From: an uncultured Spirochaetaceae bacterium
Lineage (GTDB): Bacteria > Spirochaetota > Spirochaetia > Sphaerochaetales > Sphaerochaetaceae
Assembly (NCBI GenBank): GCA_944389145.1
Contig: CALXLH010000013.1
Span: forward strand, 1 to 37,615
Reading direction: 5' to 3'
DNA length: 37,615 nt
Position 1 is the stretch's first letter. Every line of letters begins with the position of its first letter. A model generated the notes under the pieces. The model was not told the origin of the DNA, made no database searches, and saw nothing but the letters and a program-made list of their open reading frames with translations. The position numbers and the translations under genes were made by a program. Shown here in pieces: positions 1 to 37,615 of this stretch.

Positions 1-37
1 GATCAAGGTCGCCCATGATCCTCATTCCTGATTCAAT

Positions 38-69
38 GGGCCGCGTCCGCTCAGGCTAAGACACGGCCC
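38..69 (-). terminator. Hairpin downstream of left GLUG lipoprotein gene
   Basis: Arms GGGCCGCGTC (38-47) and GACACGGCCC (60-69) pair with one mismatch around a 12-nt loop. It lies about 65 nt past the stop of the minus-strand lipoprotein gene, so it may end the cassette transcript. There is no clear U-run, so a role as an intrinsic terminator is uncertain. The same hairpin is at 34277-34308. Confidence 0.5.
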
Positions 70-132
70 GTTCATCAATAATCCTGGAAGATCTGGAAAC
101 TCTCGTTTGCCAAATCGAATTCCCTTAGTCAG

Positions 133-1287
133 TTACGGCTGTCCGATGGCGGACATGTCATCAGCTGTAGCGGAAGCGATTGTTTCCGATACATCAGCAC
201 CAATCACGATGGTATTATCAGAGCCGTATACAGCAGAACCGCTAGCAACGATTGCTGCAGCCTTCGGTTCCGAAGAAGTTGCGTCACAGCTGATCTGAGA
301 AGCATCTGAAAGAATCACATGGTTATCAGAGAACGTCACATTCGATCCGGCATTGCCGCAGATTCCTGCCGCATTCTTGGCTGAAGCAAAAATCTGACCG
401 CCTGCAGAAAGATCCACGGTATTTCCAGAAATCGTAATATCAATCGTTGTACCATGCTGCGGATCATTCTTACTTGCGCAACCTACGATGCCACCAGCAT
501 TGTAGTTTCCGGTATGGTTACCACTCTCGTTTGCCTCGGCATAATCAATTGTGGTATCCGTTGCAAGCACAGCGGTATTCTCAACAAAACAATCAGTGAT
601 GCTTCCACCATCATAGAGCCTGCCTACGACAGCACCCACTCCCTGAGGTCCCATGATCGTTGAATTGATAACTCTGATATGTGAAATCTCAGCCTTCTCT
701 GCATAGCCTACTGCGAAGCCTGCCGTATTCGTATTGGAAACAAGCGTACAGTTCTCAAATGTAAGATTAGAAATCTTAGCTGGGACTGCATCGGTTCCGA
801 CGACTGCGCCGAAGAACCCAACAGGAGTCCCATCTTCCTGAGCCTCTGTAATCGTACCAGTCTCGTCAACAGGATATGAGAGGTTCACATTCCTGAATGT
901 ACTGTAATTCCCATCGAACTCGCCCTTAAAGGCCTTGTAGGTAGCGCTGTCCTTCCTATCAGTAGCACTTCCAAGGAATGAGGCAACGCCATCATTGGTC
1001 TGAGAAACCTTGGAAAAATCATATACTCCATTCTTCAATATGATCTGCTTATCGGAGAAGTCCTCGCCTTCCTCAATCAGCTTACCGATTCCAAGGATCT
1101 CATTCGCGGTGTCAAGTACGAAATATGTCGCATCTTCGTTGTACCAGTTGGTATCAGGCTGGGTTGCATAGATAGCAAGGAAATCTTCCCACTTATCTGC
1201 GTTGTCATTTGCAGCGCTATTGTCACATCCTACAATCACGAGGAGTGCCATAAGCACCACTGCGATCAGGCCGCCTATCTTTCTCAT
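133..1287 (-). CDS. GLUG-type repeat lipoprotein (left cassette)
   Basis: This predicted surface or periplasmic lipoprotein has 384 aa. The N-terminus MRKIGG is followed by a hydrophobic stretch and a lipobox ending VIVGC, with the lipidated Cys near residue 21. The body contains glycine-rich, short-strand repeats such as GFFGAVVG, GFAVGYAE, GAVVGRLYDGG and GGIVGCAS. These are typical of GLUG-motif or right-handed beta-helix surface proteins. It is paralogous to the gene at 34364-35776: signal peptide and overall plan are shared, but the internal sequence diverges and the paralog is 86 aa longer. It is the third gene of the cassette, after the Ig-like lipoprotein and the HTH gene. A GAGGGG ribosome-binding site precedes the ATG. 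The ligand or host target is unknown. The family call is moderate; the lipoprotein call is strong. Confidence 0.85.
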   Translation of the reverse strand: MRKIGGLIAVVLMALLVIVGCDNSAANDNADKWEDFLAIYATQPDTNWYNEDATYFVLDTANEILGIGKLIEEGEDFSDKQIILKNGVYDFSKVSQTNDGVASFLGSATDRKDSATYKAFKGEFDGNYSTFRNVNLSYPVDETGTITEAQEDGTPVGFFGAVVGTDAVPAKISNLTFENCTLVSNTNTAGFAVGYAEKAEISHIRVINSTIMGPQGVGAVVGRLYDGGSITDCFVENTAVLATDTTIDYAEANESGNHTGNYNAGGIVGCASKNDPQHGTTIDITISGNTVDLSAGGQIFASAKNAAGICGNAGSNVTFSDNHVILSDASQISCDATSSEPKAAAIVASGSAVYGSDNTIVIGADVSETIASATADDMSAIGQP

Positions 1288-1321
1288 CTTTTCCCCTCTG
1301 TCCCCTTTCCAGGTTCCATAA

Positions 1322-1343
1322 GGGCCCAGCCTAGGCTGAGCCC
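1322..1343 (-). terminator. Near-perfect palindrome between HTH and GLUG lipoprotein genes
   Basis: A 22-nt inverted repeat (arms GGGCCCAGCCT and AGGCTGAGCCC, one mismatched pair) lies 41 nt past the HTH stop and upstream of the lipoprotein ribosome-binding site. It is conserved at 35811-35832. With no U-run after it on the minus strand, it may be an attenuator, an RNA-processing site or a protein-binding palindrome rather than a terminator. Confidence 0.5.
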
Positions 1344-1384
1344 AAAAGCATAAAATATTCGGAAGAGCTATAACTCTCTTCTAC

Positions 1385-1579
1385 CTATTTCATTCCGTAC
1401 GCCCACGACGTATCACCGCTGGCGTACTTCCGTCTGTAGTCCCTGACGGTGTAGGTGTTGAGGCCGGTTATGGTTGCCGTCCTCTTATACCCGTTCCCCT
1501 TCTCGAAGAGGTCTAGGCACTCCTGCCTCTTCTCCACGGGGATCCTCGGCTTCCGGAGGGACGTAGTGACTTCTTCCAT
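1385..1579 (-). CDS. Small helix-turn-helix protein (left cassette)
   Basis: This 64-aa basic protein resembles the homeodomain-like HTH at the N-terminus of transposases and resolvases. The segment from about residue 17 to 52 (ECLDLFEKGNGYKRTATITG, then NTYTVRDYRRKY) reads as helix-turn-helix with a recognition helix starting near TYTVRDY. It has no catalytic domain and no transposon ends were seen. A strong AAGGAGGAGGAG ribosome-binding site precedes the ATG. It lies between the two lipoprotein genes in both cassette copies. Against the copy at 35873-36067 only residues 19 (Gln/Lys) and 51 (Lys/Arg) differ, while 17 codons differ silently. That shows selection to keep the protein. A likely role is DNA binding within the cassette, as a regulator or recombination accessory, but this is inferred only. 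Confidence 0.8.
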   Translation of the reverse strand: MEEVTTSLRKPRIPVEKRQECLDLFEKGNGYKRTATITGLNTYTVRDYRRKYASGDTSWAYGMK

Positions 1580-1601
1580 CTCCTCCTCCTTCCTGAACGC
1601 T

Positions 1602-1625
1602 TGAGGCCCGGTTTCCCAGGCCTCA
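1602..1625 (-). promoter_or_regulatory. Hairpin in the leader of the left HTH gene
   Basis: Arms TGAGGCC (1602-1608) and GGCCTCA (1619-1625) form a 7-bp stem just upstream of the HTH ribosome-binding site. Both the sequence and the distance are conserved in the right copy (36090-36113). It could stabilise a processed transcript or serve as the operator of the HTH protein. No direct evidence separates these. Confidence 0.5.
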
Positions 1626-1640
1626 GCCCTCGTCAGGATT

Positions 1641-1671
1641 CCTAAGCATACCTGAATAATGTATGCCTAGG
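1641..1671 (-). terminator. Hairpin after the left Ig-like lipoprotein gene
   Basis: Arms CCTAAGCATAC (1641-1651) and GTATGCCTAGG (1661-1671) form an 11-bp stem with one mismatch, 15 nt past the lipoprotein stop. No U-run follows on the minus strand, so termination would be partial at best. It is absent from the right cassette, which instead has the 14-nt palindrome TTGAGTAAACTCAA at 36134-36147 over its stop codon. Confidence 0.5.
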
Positions 1672-1686
1672 CGATTTCAATCAGGA

Positions 1687-3090
1687 TTAATTTGCCTTAG
1701 TAGCAACCGTCACGGTCTTTGCCCACTCAGGATGATCAATCGGCGTGATAGTGATATCAATCGGGGCTCCAGGCATCCTGTTGTCAGAAGAGACTTCTTC
1801 AGGAGTGATATTGTAGCCATCGGTCTTGCCATTGAAGGTAAGCTCCTTCGTAGAATCAGTACCATCAGTAAGCTTGTAAACGACCTTAAGGCCAGCTCCA
1901 CTTGCAGATACATCAGCTGCTGTAACTTCCTCAGTGTCTGCACTGTAATCAGTGTCAAGAGCATACTTGAAAGTTCCAACAGTAATGGTTATTCCTGCAG
2001 GGACATTCTCAACAACTTCAATATCCCTAGAAGAAACGGCATCAGTTGTGAATCCAGAAACAACATCAGTCGTTCCTTCATAAGAAGCCCAAAGCTTGAT
2101 GCTGTTACCAGAGACGCTTGTAAACTTAAGCTGTGTAAGATCGCTCATCGTTACAGTAGAAGTCTTGGTACCGTCAGCCGTAAGAGCTACTTTTACACTT
2201 GCCGCAGTTGTTGCCGCTCCAGTCTGCCCATTGACCATGTTAGCAAGGACTGCGATAGGAGCCTTTGCACCGATCGATGCAGCTGCAGGAGTCGCGTCCT
2301 CTGCATAATAGATTACATAATCATCATCGATATCAAAGTAGATAGATGTAATCAGATTCTTCTCATACTTGGCATCGAATGTTGTAGTCGCAGGGGTTGC
2401 ATCCTTCGTCGAAACCTGAACAACAACCTTATCACCAGCGGTATAGTCAGTCATAGCTGCTGTTGCGCTCTTCCAGCCAGCAAGATCAATAGCTTCAAAT
2501 TCGTCATTATCTGCATCGATATAACCGAGAGCTACATCGTAAGCATCCTCATCAAGAACCTTAGTCTCAGTACCGTTGTAGGTAGCGGTAACAACGAGTC
2601 CGGCCTTGCTGACAGTCATGAACTTACCATACTTCTCATCCGTAACAGCCGTTACACCAGCAAGATTCGCATCGCCATCCATTGCTACGATGTTGTAGTA
2701 TGTCTTCACAACATCATCAGCAGTCGCATCAACGGTGATCTTATCGATCTCATAAACAGTCACAGGCACCGTGATCGCAGGAACAGAGACAACACCAGCA
2801 TATGTGAATCCGGTCTTATCCATGTCCTTGGTAAGCACGACGTCAGAAGAGAACAGGGAAGAAGCCATGTTCTCGATCACGACATTGCCAGCTGCATCAT
2901 AGCCGGTGAACGTATAGTCTGCCGGATCGGCCTTCTCACCCTCAAGGTAGACGACATCGCCCTTGGCGGTGGCTTCGATATAAGCAACATCGAGCTGGCT
3001 AGCAGCGCCAGAATTAGCAGTGCTGTTGTCGCAAGCCGCGAAGCCGAATACGACGGCAAGAGCAAGCATTGCAATCATCAACTTTCTCAT
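1687..3090 (-). CDS. Ig-like (Big_3-type) repeat lipoprotein (left cassette)
   Basis: This 467-aa exported lipoprotein has an N-terminal MRKLMIAMLAL hydrophobic run and a lipobox ending GFAAC (Cys near residue 20), then a Ser/Asn/Gly linker. The body consists of repeated beta-rich segments with patterns such as ITVDATADDVVKTYYN and LVVTATYNGTETKVLDEDAY. These are reminiscent of bacterial Ig-like (Big_3-type) domains. It is Thr/Ala/Val/Asp rich and nearly Cys-free after the lipidated residue. The start at 3090 was chosen over an upstream in-frame ATG at 3156. A GGAGG site precedes it, the signal peptide begins there, and the upstream codons cover the promoter. It is the first gene of the cassette and is probably surface exposed. 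The paralog at 36144-37490 shares the export signal but has a different body. Confidence 0.85.
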   Translation of the reverse strand: MRKLMIAMLALAVVFGFAACDNSTANSGAASQLDVAYIEATAKGDVVYLEGEKADPADYTFTGYDAAGNVVIENMASSLFSSDVVLTKDMDKTGFTYAGVVSVPAITVPVTVYEIDKITVDATADDVVKTYYNIVAMDGDANLAGVTAVTDEKYGKFMTVSKAGLVVTATYNGTETKVLDEDAYDVALGYIDADNDEFEAIDLAGWKSATAAMTDYTAGDKVVVQVSTKDATPATTTFDAKYEKNLITSIYFDIDDDYVIYYAEDATPAAASIGAKAPIAVLANMVNGQTGAATTAASVKVALTADGTKTSTVTMSDLTQLKFTSVSGNSIKLWASYEGTTDVVSGFTTDAVSSRDIEVVENVPAGITITVGTFKYALDTDYSADTEEVTAADVSASGAGLKVVYKLTDGTDSTKELTFNGKTDGYNITPEEVSSDNRMPGAPIDITITPIDHPEWAKTVTVATKAN

Positions 3091-3125
3091 CTTAAAAATC
3101 CTCCGAATGAATCTTTGATGCACTA

Positions 3126-3156
3126 AGCCTACCCCCCCCCCGTAGGCTTTTGTCAA
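3126..3156 (-). promoter_or_regulatory. Promoter with G-tract spacer, left cassette
   Basis: On the minus strand a perfect TTGACA -35 (3151-3156) and a TAGGCT -10 (3126-3131) flank a 19-nt spacer. The spacer consists of AAAGCCTAC plus ten G. The AT-rich sequence upstream of the -35 is also conserved with the right copy. The lipoprotein start codon lies 35 nt past the -10. Since 17 nt is the sigma-70 optimum, slippage in the tract would tune promoter strength; this last point is inference. Confidence 0.8.
3132..3141 (-). repeat. Homopolymeric G10 tract inside the promoter spacer
   Basis: Ten consecutive C are read on the plus strand (G on the coding strand), flanked by the inverted heptamers AGCCTAC and GTAGGCT. 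The equivalent tract at 37532-37540 has nine. It is a simple-sequence repeat prone to slipped-strand mispairing. Confidence 0.9.
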
Positions 3157-3291
3157 GAGGTATTTTCACTTTTTATCGCTTTTATGATGATTGGTGCGTC
3201 AGGGACTATCTTCTTTGCTATTAAGGAATTGGCTTTATTTTAGCGGATTGATGTAACCTTTTTCGGGTTCGTTGGTTATGGTTTGTTTGAT

Positions 3292-34189: not shown

Positions 34190-34308
34190 GGGCTGTCCCC
34201 GCACAAGCTAAGAGACAGCCCGTTTATAAACTTTCGGAAGATCAAGGTCGCCCATGATCCTCATTCCTGATCCAATGGGCCGCGTCCGCTCAGGCTAAGA
34301 CACGGCCC
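34190..34308 (-). repeat. Two tandem related hairpins downstream of right cassette
   Basis: Unit one has arms GGGCTGTC and GACAGCCC (34190-34221). Unit two has arms GGGCCGCGTC and GACACGGCCC (34277-34308). Their loops share GCTAAGA, and the sequence after each is alike (CGTTTATAAA versus CGTTCATCAA). They are diverged tandem copies 87 bp apart. They may act as terminators of the lipoprotein cassette or as recombination sites. Unit two equals the hairpin at 38-69. Confidence 0.6.
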
Positions 34309-34363
34309 GTTCATCAATAATCCTGGAAGATCTGGAAACTCTCGTTTGCCAAATCGAATTCCC

Positions 34364-35776
34364 TTAGTCAGTTAGCACGCCTGCATTCGTGTTCGCGCTG
34401 TCATCGATGGTGATTTCAGCAGCATTACCGATCTTAATGGTGTTGTCTCCAGATGCCAGACTGATTGAGGCATCTCCACCATAGATAGCTCCCTTTGCTG
34501 ATGCAGCAGAAATCTGGCTCTTATCTGCAATCACGACAGAATTCGAGCTGAATGTAGAGGTAGCCGTCGCATTGCCGCTGATTCCGCCTGCGTTCTTCGA
34601 TGCAGCCTCGATGGAGCTGGTTCCATTCAGGGTGACTATGTTTCCAGAGAAATCGCTTCCAGAAGAGCTGCCGCAGATTCCACCAGCGCCATCTGTCGTA
34701 CCACTTGCCTTAGACGAGCTAATGCTTGCGTTGCCGTTCAGAGTGACCTTGTTACCAGTAAACGTCACCTTATTCGTTGATTTCATGCCTGTGCTTCCAC
34801 AGATTCCGCCAGCAAAGTAATCAGCTGCGGATATCTTGTTTCCGTTTCCAAGCGTTACCTGATTATCTTCGATAGCTATTGCGCCATACTCAGGATCTGG
34901 GGCTGCTACATCCCAGGAACTTCCCCTCGTGCTATAGCTGGCGATTCCGACGATTCCTCCGACATTATAGTTGCCAGTCCTGGGTCCCTCATAATTCACG
35001 TCAACATCGGATGCGATCACAGAGGTATTCTCAACAACGCAGTCCGATATCTCTCCGCTGTTATAGAGCCTTCCGACCACTCCACCTACTCCCTGAGGAC
35101 CAGTGATCGTGCAGTTCCTAACCGTGATTCCGCTGATGATCGCGTTCTCAGCATATCCCACTGCGATACCGGTCGTATTGGATGTGGAGAACAATGTGCA
35201 GTCCTCGAATACGAGATCCCTAACCTCAGCAGGTGCAGCAGCCGTTCCCTTTACGACGCCGAAGAAGCCGACTGCTACATCAGACTCCTCCGCCTCAGTC
35301 AGAGTTCCATCCTTGACTCCCTCTGGATATGAGAGATCGACTCCCTTTATGACAGCGCCATTTCCGTTGAACTTGCCCTTGAAGAAAGCCCTTGAGTCTT
35401 CAAACTGACTATCCTCATAGTACTTCCTGCTTCCGAAGCCGATGAATGAAGGATCCCCCTTCTTGCTCTCGGAAACCTGCGAGAAATCGAACTCTGCATT
35501 TGCAGGAAGGGTTATATTTGCCCCTTCGAATTCCTCACCGCCATTCACAAGCTCCATAAGGCCATAAAGCTCGTTAGCGGTAGTAAGCTTATATGTCTTA
35601 CCAGAAGTGGACTCACCCTCAGTGAACCAGGACGTATCCGGCTGGGTTGCGATTATCCCGTTAATATGGTTGATCCACTCATCATTCCCGTCATTCGTGA
35701 CGGTGCTATTATCACATCCTACAATCACAAGGAGTGCTACAAGCACCAATGCGATCAGGCCGCCTATCTTTCTCAT
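34364..35776 (-). CDS. GLUG-type repeat lipoprotein (right cassette)
   Basis: This 470-aa lipoprotein is paralogous to the gene at 133-1287. It has the same MRKIGG signal and VIVGC lipobox, then GLUG-like segments (GFFGVVKG, GIAVGYAE, GVVGRLYNSG, GGIVGIAS, GGICGSTG). It has more of these repeats than the left copy, which accounts for the extra 86 residues. The body is Ser/Asn/Gly-rich and fits a right-handed beta-helix surface protein. The ribosome-binding site and upstream palindrome are the same as in the left copy. The stop lies 8 nt further downstream in the repeat, and in a different frame, than in the left copy. Confidence 0.87.
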   Translation of the reverse strand: MRKIGGLIALVLVALLVIVGCDNSTVTNDGNDEWINHINGIIATQPDTSWFTEGESTSGKTYKLTTANELYGLMELVNGGEEFEGANITLPANAEFDFSQVSESKKGDPSFIGFGSRKYYEDSQFEDSRAFFKGKFNGNGAVIKGVDLSYPEGVKDGTLTEAEESDVAVGFFGVVKGTAAAPAEVRDLVFEDCTLFSTSNTTGIAVGYAENAIISGITVRNCTITGPQGVGGVVGRLYNSGEISDCVVENTSVIASDVDVNYEGPRTGNYNVGGIVGIASYSTRGSSWDVAAPDPEYGAIAIEDNQVTLGNGNKISAADYFAGGICGSTGMKSTNKVTFTGNKVTLNGNASISSSKASGTTDGAGGICGSSSGSDFSGNIVTLNGTSSIEAASKNAGGISGNATATSTFSSNSVVIADKSQISAASAKGAIYGGDASISLASGDNTIKIGNAAEITIDDSANTNAGVLTD

Positions 35777-35810
35777 CTTTTCCCCTCTGTCCCCTTTCCA
35801 GGTTCCATAA

Positions 35811-35832
35811 GGGCCCAGCCTAGGCTGAGCCC
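35811..35832 (-). terminator. Palindrome between right HTH and GLUG lipoprotein genes
   Basis: It is identical in arms to the palindrome at 1322-1343 and in the same position relative to both genes. Conservation supports a function in the cassette transcript. Confidence 0.5.
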
Positions 35833-35872
35833 AAAAGCATAAAATATTCGGAAGAGCTTAACTCTCTTCTAC

Positions 35873-36067
35873 CTATTTCATCCCGTACGCCCAGGACGTG
35901 TCTCCCGATGCATACCTCCGTCTGTAGTCCCTGACGGTGTAGGTGTTGAGGCCGGTTATCGTCGCCGTCCTCTTGTACCCGTTCCCCTTCTCGAAGAGAT
36001 CCAGGCATTCCTTCCTCTTCTCGACGGGAATCCTTGGTTTCCGGAGGGACGTAGTGACTTCTTCCAT
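35873..36067 (-). CDS. Small helix-turn-helix protein (right cassette)
   Basis: This 64-aa protein is almost identical to the copy at 1385-1579: residue 19 is Lys and residue 51 is Arg here. Nineteen synonymous base changes in 17 codons separate the genes, against two amino-acid changes, both conservative. It has the same strong AAGGAGGAGGAG ribosome-binding site. It is in the same place between the Ig-like and GLUG lipoprotein genes. The preserved reading frame and protein show it is under purifying selection. The function is unknown; DNA binding is expected. Confidence 0.82.
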   Translation of the reverse strand: MEEVTTSLRKPRIPVEKRKECLDLFEKGNGYKRTATITGLNTYTVRDYRRRYASGDTSWAYGMK

Positions 36068-36089
36068 CTCCTCCTCCTTCCTGAACGCT

Positions 36090-36113
36090 TGAGGCCCGGT
36101 TTCCCAGGCCTCA
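36090..36113 (-). promoter_or_regulatory. Hairpin in the leader of the right HTH gene
   Basis: It has the same TGAGGCC/GGCCTCA stem as at 1602-1625, directly upstream of the HTH ribosome-binding site. Confidence 0.5.
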
Positions 36114-36143
36114 GCCCTCGTCAGGATTTCCTATTGAGTAAAC

Positions 36144-37490
36144 TCAAACTGTTGCAATCTTCGATGTTACTGTCTTGCTGAATCCACCAGCAGAAACAGT
36201 TACGGTTACCGGAGTACCTTCAAGATAATCCTTCGAAGAGAATGTAGTAGGATTAATCGTATAACCGTTAGTCGTAGCATTCAGCTTAAGCGTCTGGCCA
36301 GCAGTCTTGGAAGCCATCTCATAGGCTACCGTGAAGTCAGCAGGAGCAGTTGCAGTAGTTGCACTATAGTCTGTATCAAGAGTGAATCCAGTAGATCCAA
36401 CAGTGACTACAAGTCCAGTGATACTATCCTTCTCAACAGGAACGCTAGCAGAAACAGCGACCTGCTTGAAATCAGGAACAACACCCTTTGCAGACTCAAG
36501 CTTTGCCCAGACCGTTACGGAAGTTGCGCCAGTGAGGTCAAGGGATGTAATGTCTGTGGAATAAGTACCATTCTGTGTAAGCGAATACTTAACCACATTG
36601 GCTCCAACCAAAGAAGAAGAAAGCGCAACTCCCTCCTGGCCGTTTACCATGACACCCTTTGCAACTACATCATCAGCAGACAGCTTTGTTGCAGAAGCGA
36701 GGCTAGACTCATCAATACCATAGTAGAGAACATAGTCATCAGCGACATCGACATAGATTGAGCTTACAGCATTGTCACTGTATGTCACTGGATAGTAATC
36801 AACAGCGCTTGTTCCAGCCATGGAAACCTGAACGACAGCATCCTTACCACTCAAGGTCGTTGCTGCAGCGGTTGCCCAATTAGCTCCAGAGATAGCAGCA
36901 AAGCCAGTCTCTGTTCCTGTAGTTACGGTACCAAGAACAGCAATATAATCATCTGCATCGATAACCTTCTCGCTGGTTCCGTTGTAGGTAGCAGTCACTA
37001 CAAGATCGGTCTTGTCAACAAGCGTATACGAATAGTAATCGCCGCCCTCTACCGTGCTTGTAGCATCAACAGCAACAGCACCTACCTGTGAGATCGTGTA
37101 ATATGCATCCTTGACAGTGTCAGCCTTTGCATCAACAGTGATCTTCTCGATTTCATAAACAGACACTGGAACCTTGATGGAAGGAACCGTCACCGCTCCC
37201 GTATAGGAGAAGACAGCCTCATCGTCACCCTTCGCGAAAGCCTTGGTTGCCGAGAAGAGGGTAGAAGCCATGTTCTCAATTACGACGTTTCCGGCTGCAT
37301 CATAGCCAGTGAAGGTGAAGTCTGCCGGATCAGGAGTCTCGCCAACAAGATAATCCGTAGCTGTCTTCTCAACAGCCTCGATATAGGCAACATCAAGCTG
37401 TGACGCACCAGAATTAGCAGTGCTGTTGTCGCAAGCCGCGAAGCCGAATACGACGGCAAGAGCAAGCATTGCAATCATCAACTTTCTCAT
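36144..37490 (-). CDS. Ig-like (Big_3-type) repeat lipoprotein (right cassette)
   Basis: This 448-aa lipoprotein is paralogous to the gene at 1687-3090. The signal peptide and first residues (lipobox GFAAC, then DNSTANSGASQLDVAYIEA) are shared, but the body diverges and is 19 residues shorter. Beta-rich Ig-like patterns include ITVDAKADTVKDAYYTI and LVVTATYNGTSEKVIDADDY. The ATG at 37490 with GGAGG 9 nt upstream was preferred over a frame starting at 37568 that would run through the promoter. The promoter spacer is 18 nt here against 19 in the left copy. Confidence 0.86.
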   Translation of the reverse strand: MRKLMIAMLALAVVFGFAACDNSTANSGASQLDVAYIEAVEKTATDYLVGETPDPADFTFTGYDAAGNVVIENMASTLFSATKAFAKGDDEAVFSYTGAVTVPSIKVPVSVYEIEKITVDAKADTVKDAYYTISQVGAVAVDATSTVEGGDYYSYTLVDKTDLVVTATYNGTSEKVIDADDYIAVLGTVTTGTETGFAAISGANWATAAATTLSGKDAVVQVSMAGTSAVDYYPVTYSDNAVSSIYVDVADDYVLYYGIDESSLASATKLSADDVVAKGVMVNGQEGVALSSSLVGANVVKYSLTQNGTYSTDITSLDLTGATSVTVWAKLESAKGVVPDFKQVAVSASVPVEKDSITGLVVTVGSTGFTLDTDYSATTATAPADFTVAYEMASKTAGQTLKLNATTNGYTINPTTFSSKDYLEGTPVTVTVSAGGFSKTVTSKIATV

Positions 37491-37525
37491 TTCTAAAATC
37501 CTCCGAATGAATCTTTGATGCACTA

Positions 37526-37555
37526 AGCCTACCCCCCCCCGTAGGCTTTTGTCAA
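37526..37555 (-). promoter_or_regulatory. Promoter with G-tract spacer, right cassette
   Basis: TTGACA (37550-37555) and TAGGCT (37526-37531) are separated by 18 nt, which include nine consecutive G (37532-37540). It matches the left copy but for the tract length. Confidence 0.8.
37532..37540 (-). repeat. Homopolymeric G9 tract inside the promoter spacer
   Basis: Nine C are read on the plus strand. The left copy has ten. Confidence 0.9.
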
Positions 37556-37615
37556 GTGCTTTTTTCACTTTTTGACGCTTTTATGCAAGTTGGTGCCTTC
37601 TGTGCTATCTCCTTT

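Follow-up and report, generated by a model that had tools for sequence, protein, structure and literature searches.

A poly-G promoter spacer as a putative switch of lipoprotein cassettes in gut spirochetes of the genus Ca. Ornithospirochaeta

A run of ten G residues lies between the -35 and -10 boxes of a promoter that precedes a lipoprotein cassette in an uncultured spirochete. Is this tract a switch that turns the cassette on and off by changing its length, or is it a chance homopolymer, an assembly error, or an element with another function? The window examined here, a stretch of 37,615 nucleotides (nt), makes up all of contig C13 in a draft genome of 2.13 Mb and 42 contigs. Its genus was taken as Ca. 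Ornithospirochaeta, a largely uncultured group of gut spirochetes named from chicken metagenomes, because two promoter sites of the same-genus genome G029 (C54, 3548 to 3578, and C164, 6692 to 6723) share their contig coordinates with sites in Ca. Ornithospirochaeta stercoravium records. We consider it highly probable, on sequence comparison and with transcription inferred, that the locus is a sigma-70-type promoter whose slippage-prone G-tract spacer switches a lipoprotein cassette.

Promoters and genes of the two cassettes

On the minus strand, positions 3156 to 3126 of the window read TTGACA-AAAGCCTAC-GGGGGGGGGG-TAGGCT, where GGGGGGGGGG is G10 and the spacer is 19 nt long. The original prediction had described a TTGACA and a TAGGCT separated by 19 nt with a G10 tract at this position, and its coordinates and spacing proved exact. 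It had also proposed a second cassette with nine G and an 18-nt spacer. This cassette is present at the right end of the window, where the hexamers and AAAGCCTAC are the same as in cassette 1 but the tract is G9 (37540 to 37532) and the spacer is 18 nt. As predicted, each cassette contains three genes, two of which encode lipoproteins, in the order lipoprotein A, small gene B, lipoprotein C. The features are as follows, with the promoter elements and the Shine-Dalgarno motif read from the sequence.

3151..3156, minus strand: -35 box TTGACA of cassette 1, the hexamer common to 208 genus elements (required by the search)
3142..3150, minus strand: fixed spacer part AAAGCCTAC of cassette 1, 9 nt
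3132..3141, minus strand: G10 putative slippage tract of cassette 1, total spacer 19 nt
3126..3131, minus strand: -10 box TAGGCT of cassette 1, abutting the tract (genus consensus TAGNCT)
3100..3104, minus strand: Shine-Dalgarno motif GGAGG of gene A, cassette 1
1687..3090, minus strand: gene A of cassette 1, 467-aa lipoprotein (MRKLMIAMLALAVVFGFAAC-DNST...), no confident Pfam family
1385..1579, minus strand: gene B of cassette 1, 64-aa putative helix-turn-helix (HTH) protein, HTH_23-like, conserved promoter partner
133..1287, minus strand: gene C of cassette 1, 384-aa lipoprotein with GLUG-like repeats, third cassette gene, cotranscription inferred
37550..37555, minus strand: -35 box TTGACA of cassette 2
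37532..37540, minus strand: G9 putative slippage tract of cassette 2, spacer 18 nt, at a junction where the ends of contigs C26 and C27 have G10
37526..37531, minus strand: -10 box TAGGCT of cassette 2
36144..37490, minus strand: gene A of cassette 2, 448-aa lipoprotein, 49% identical to gene A of cassette 1
35873..36067, minus strand: gene B of cassette 2, protein 97% identical to gene B of cassette 1
34364..35776, minus strand: gene C of cassette 2, 470-aa lipoprotein with a GLUG motif

The ATG of gene A in cassette 1 lies 35 nt downstream of the -10 box, and the positions of the -10 box, Shine-Dalgarno motif, and ATG are compatible with a transcription start just 3' of the -10 box, the start itself being inferred. 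The genus consensus TAGNCT resembles TATAAT poorly, agreeing only at T1, A2, and T6. A consensus promoter scanner did not detect the poly-G element, since it accepts spacers of 16 to 18 nt only.

In both window copies, the sequences AAGCCTAC...GTAGGCTT that flank the tract can pair into a stem of 8 bp (z = -2.3), and a hairpin or cruciform could in principle control the promoter. This stem, however, is not conserved in the genus or even within the same genome, where the sister copies with TAGCCT lack the 8-bp arms. The hairpin was therefore rejected, and we give it practically no credence.

Expression of genes B and C from the poly-G promoter, and thus a response of the whole cassette, is inferred from gene order. 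G+C-rich inverted repeats (for example, GGGCTCAGCCTAGGCTGGGCCC) occupy the gaps between genes A and B (1580 to 1686, minus strand) and between genes B and C (1288 to 1384, minus strand), and these repeats may reduce read-through to gene C. Comparison of window positions 1 to 3216 with 34240 to 37615 revealed that the two cassettes are mosaics. The promoter and signal peptide are 97% identical, the gene B region is 92 to 97% identical, and the 3' end is 99% identical; the body of lipoprotein A, by contrast, is only 49% identical at the protein level. This combination of near-identical and divergent segments suggests recombination between cassettes.

Distribution of the promoter frame and its partner genes

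The G runs of the window are only mildly unusual in themselves: five overlapping G8 matches were found against 1.35 expected, a count reached by 4 of 100 shuffles. Throughout the genome, 10 runs of at least nine G were seen versus about 20 expected from composition. Six of these 10 sit in the TTGACA/TAGNCT promoter frame; two others lie just upstream of lipoprotein genes, and a further one precedes a gene whose product looks secreted. A chance homopolymer is thus ruled out by where the runs are located, not by how many there are. The last of the 10 runs, a G9 in contig C37 of genome G000 (L230, 28384 to 28392, minus strand), falls within lipoprotein signal-peptide codons (MNTHKGQHFSRILRGGVAFCLLLLLSSC), where switching would be translational and not transcriptional.

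The census of genomes was built on pattern searches and selected stretches. Within the genus, where the layout TTGACA-N7..10-G8..12-TAGNCT is widespread, the pattern TTGACA-N7..10-G6+-TANNNT matched 208 times in 33 of 48 species genomes, whereas the reversed-pattern control matched once. When 84,980 species genomes were scanned with the exact pattern, 89 stretches were recovered, 80 of which were named; 79 of the 80 are from spirochete metagenome-assembled genomes (MAGs), including Ca. Ornithospirochaeta. The lone nonspirochete, a Planctomycetota MAG, carries a G11 promoter before a lipoprotein-like gene (L148, 2514 to 2545). Of the 393 genomes of the phylum, 48 contain the frame with a tract of at least eight G, in several further families of the class, and the reversed pattern matched once. 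A genome that carries the promoter has as few as one copy and as many as about a dozen. One genome of the same class and another family (G337) has 18 poly-G spacer promoters, in which the fixed part is commonly AAATGGC and the spacers are mostly 15 to 16 nt, a mirror image, about 17 nt, of those in the window's genus. Contigs C26 and C27 and the window all terminate at the same cassette promoter, indicating that repeated cassettes break the assembly and that their copy number is probably underestimated.

A lipoprotein signal is present in the first gene downstream of the promoter in 67 of 68 genus cases, compared with 27 of 377 (7%) other genes of the same loci (Fisher P = 4e-56). Of 42 elements inspected outside the genus, 23 are followed by a lipoprotein when judged by this simple signal rule, and for several more a lipoprotein was recognized by eye. 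In contig C25 of genome G000 (L228, 4671 to 9095, minus strand), a G10 promoter is followed by a phage-looking open reading frame (ORF) of 1,446 aa and not by a lipoprotein; the cassette lipoprotein lies behind this ORF, and a frameshift at a run of eight G in its coding sequence breaks it in two. The ORF was considered as a restriction-modification or defense gene and rejected, as PADLOC gave no match, Pfam gave none that was convincing, and the ORF appears by eye to be phage derived.

Almost every poly-G promoter of the genus is also accompanied by a conserved HTH partner gene of 60 to 80 aa, gene B. Among 81 distinct gene B loci in the genus, the promoter lies upstream in the same orientation at 63 and is absent at 1, and the flank of the other 17 is too short to judge; conversely, gene B is found downstream of 39 of the 45 promoters with enough flank. 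The gene is under purifying selection (median dN/dS, 0.16). Forty-two of 46 family members match PF13384 with an E value below 0.01 (best, 5e-9), and the window copy scores 23.8 bits, just under the Pfam cutoff of 24.6. The predicted structure has three helices (residues 15 to 26, 31 to 38, and 42 to 53) with a pLDDT of 82, and its fold matches are all weak; a sequence search of the PDB with gene B returned nothing significant. On these predictions, gene B is a small three-helix HTH protein of the HTH_23 homeodomain-like kind, and DNA binding is inferred.

Tract length and spacer length

In the 144 genus elements listed, the tract contains 7 to 12 G, most often 9, and is always upstream of the -10 box. 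Fifteen within-genome sets share the same spacer sequence and -10 box, and tract length differs in at least 11 of them. Likewise, 21 of 27 promoter pairs with a flank identity of at least 88% differ in tract length, as do all 4 pairs at 98% identity or above; one self-pair was removed, and the pairs are not independent. Tract length therefore varies among near-identical copies, which are paralogues and loci of related species, not isolates. A conserved frame whose tract changes length between near-identical flanks supports the original prediction of a phase-variable promoter spacer.

The strongest local evidence is an assembly seam, where the length variation may extend to a single junction. 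The ends of C26 and C27 share one 127-nt sequence with G10. The right end of the window, read on the reverse strand, starts at the same base and matches exactly over the 75 nt that lead into the tract and the 42 nt that follow it, but it has G9. That one assembly holds both lengths of this junction suggests a mixed population, although the difference could also stem from read errors or from a third locus whose flanks are the same. All of the data come from metagenome assemblies, and the tract lengths might be homopolymer artifacts of sequencing or assembly. Yet the frame is common to assemblies from different projects, and tract lengths are tied to the total spacer. Tracts of 7 to 12 G can also be resolved by short reads. 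An artifact is accordingly very improbable.

Ordinary promoters of the genus, which lack the G tract, have -35/-10 distances that peak at 17 nt (16 seen versus about 3 in shuffles). The poly-G spacers of the 144 genus elements are instead mostly 18 nt (33 elements) or 19 nt (71 elements), and those of other Spirochaetia genera are 15 to 16 or 18 to 19 nt, with a gap at 17 nt. Across the class, a total spacer of 17 nt was found in 21 of 240 elements, compared with 41.9 expected if tract length is independent of the length of the fixed part (permutation P < 5e-5). The depletion was also seen outside the genus (12 versus 27.5 expected) and with one element per genome (5.0 versus 13.4 expected). 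It was marginal when lengths were shuffled within genomes (P = 0.06), a comparison of low power, and weak in the genus alone (10 versus 14 expected; P = 0.1). Since ordinary promoters peak at the very length that the poly-G promoters avoid, total spacer length itself appears to be the quantity that matters. This evidence is indirect, without transcription data. A search requiring a perfect TTGACA could miss 17-nt elements that have evolved a weaker -35 box, and that too would mean that spacing matters.

The gene TP0126 of Treponema pallidum, an OmpW homologue, has a variable poly-G tract between its -35 and -10 boxes, and experimental tests, as described in a later paper, are reported to place its optimum at 17 nt (PMC7864442). 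In the simplest reading, a spacer of 17 nt, or eight G in the window promoters, is the ON state and most assembled loci are OFF in most cells, which fits both this optimum and the length at which ordinary promoters peak. This direction of switching is inferred without expression data. The window spacers of 19 and 18 nt exceed the ordinary 17 nt, and cassettes 1 and 2 as assembled are therefore most likely weak or OFF.

Promoters with the same frame and interrupted tracts (GGGGAGGGGG and GGGGTGGGGG) were observed at 19 to 20 nt (L227, 12373 to 12403, plus strand; also L029, L146, and L151), and these are possibly locked states of the switch. As such tracts are more stable and also sit at 19 to 20 nt, a 19-nt spacer may not be fully inactive. 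The tract could indeed be hypermutable with an effect that is graded or tuned differently: a stiff, A-form-like G tract might work best in a spacer of 18 to 19 nt, making the assembled state ON, and a gain or a loss of G would then reduce expression. The genus modes of 18 and 19 nt would then be the working lengths, and interrupted tracts would be retained close to them. Both the peak of ordinary genus promoters and the optimum reported for TP0126 stand at 17 nt, however, and an 18- to 19-nt optimum leaves unexplained why other genera have 15 to 16 and 18 to 19 nt with a gap between. We regard this alternative as unlikely while keeping it in view.

Alternatively, the tract might serve as a structural or protein-binding element that tolerates changes in length, such as an operator for protein B, with no switch and with neutral length differences. 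Its edges are conserved, with ACC before the tract and TAGNCT after it (the fixed part ends in AC, ACC, or ACT in nearly all genus elements), and the HTH partner gene is nearly constant. A binding element, however, would not explain why the tract always lies between the -35 and -10 boxes and ends directly at the latter, or why the constraint falls on the total spacer and not on tract length alone; moreover, other genera differ in the edge sequences while keeping the tract and its position. This explanation is improbable. The phase-variable promoter that had been predicted is further supported by the two lengths assembled for one junction, the lipoprotein genes downstream, and the underrepresentation of 17-nt spacers.

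Proposed switch and its relation to known systems

By replication slippage, the tract would gain or lose single G's, shifting the -35 box relative to the -10 box while leaving both intact, and promoter strength would change. Loss of one G from an 18-nt spacer, or of two from a 19-nt spacer, would give 17 nt and turn the cassette ON. As the promoters precede lipoprotein genes in up to about a dozen copies, independent switching would produce a population with many combinations of lipoproteins, whose surface exposure is inferred. The copies need not be independent: the HTH proteins made from ON cassettes might act back on the shared promoter sequence and couple the switches, for example by mutual exclusion. 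Without binding data, we offer this coupling only as a tentative and rather doubtful possibility.

Multigene lipoprotein families of the vlp type in Mycoplasma are switched by homopolymer slippage near their promoters. The cassettes described here resemble them in joining multiple lipoprotein genes to homopolymer promoters and differ in that the vlp tracts are poly-A and belong to another phylum. In Neisseria meningitidis, porA has a poly-G tract in the -35/-10 spacer and is described as losing transcription off the optimum spacing (PMC7864442). The window promoter is like porA in the placement of its tract. To our knowledge, porA is one porin gene of a betaproteobacterium, with no paired HTH gene and no genome-wide set.

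Poly-G length also controls transcription of the T. pallidum surface-protein genes tprE, tprG, tprJ, and tprL, and the tprL tract has 7 to 11 G, with 9 the commonest, according to the same paper (PMC7864442). That paper also states that the tprL tract overlaps the -10 region and leaves the -35/-10 spacing unchanged (PMC7864442). In the window's genus, unlike in a tpr-type promoter, whose tract overlaps or lies downstream of the -10 box, the tracts are upstream of the -10 box in all elements and alter the spacing. The window tract lies between the -35 and -10 boxes of a sigma-70-type promoter (TTGACA-N9-G10-TAGGCT), as in the porA/TP0126 kind; since the tprL tract acts differently, the element belongs with that kind and not with the tpr kind.

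TP0126 is a close parallel, being a spirochete gene for an outer-membrane protein reported to be switched through a poly-G spacer (PMC7864442). Unlike TP0126, a single locus encoding a beta-barrel, the element found here is a standard promoter that one genome may place before as many as about a dozen lipoprotein genes, in the genus together with an HTH partner. The mechanism is thus not new, being already described in spirochetes for TP0126 (PMC7864442), whereas the genus-wide module appears to be new. Our literature search found no description of a repeated promoter-lipoprotein-HTH module in a commensal genus or of its spread through Spirochaetia, and no phase-variation work on Ca. Ornithospirochaeta, an absence that is not proof. 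Homopolymer tracts have been counted in treponemes without, in the part of that study available, being placed in promoters (PMC8049484).

The known cases of slippage in promoter spacers are single genes, mainly of pathogens. Here one design, tied to lipoproteins, is found repeatedly in a genus of gut commensals and, at lower density, in Spirochaetia at large. The TP0126 case from syphilis is thereby placed within a wider family of architectures. The more than 200 spacers form a natural series for asking which spacing is ON, and through them metagenome reads could reveal combinatorial surface expression directly. They also raise the question of why each switched lipoprotein has its own DNA-binding protein. 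If protein B does act on the shared promoter sequence, the switches of these spirochetes would be coupled.
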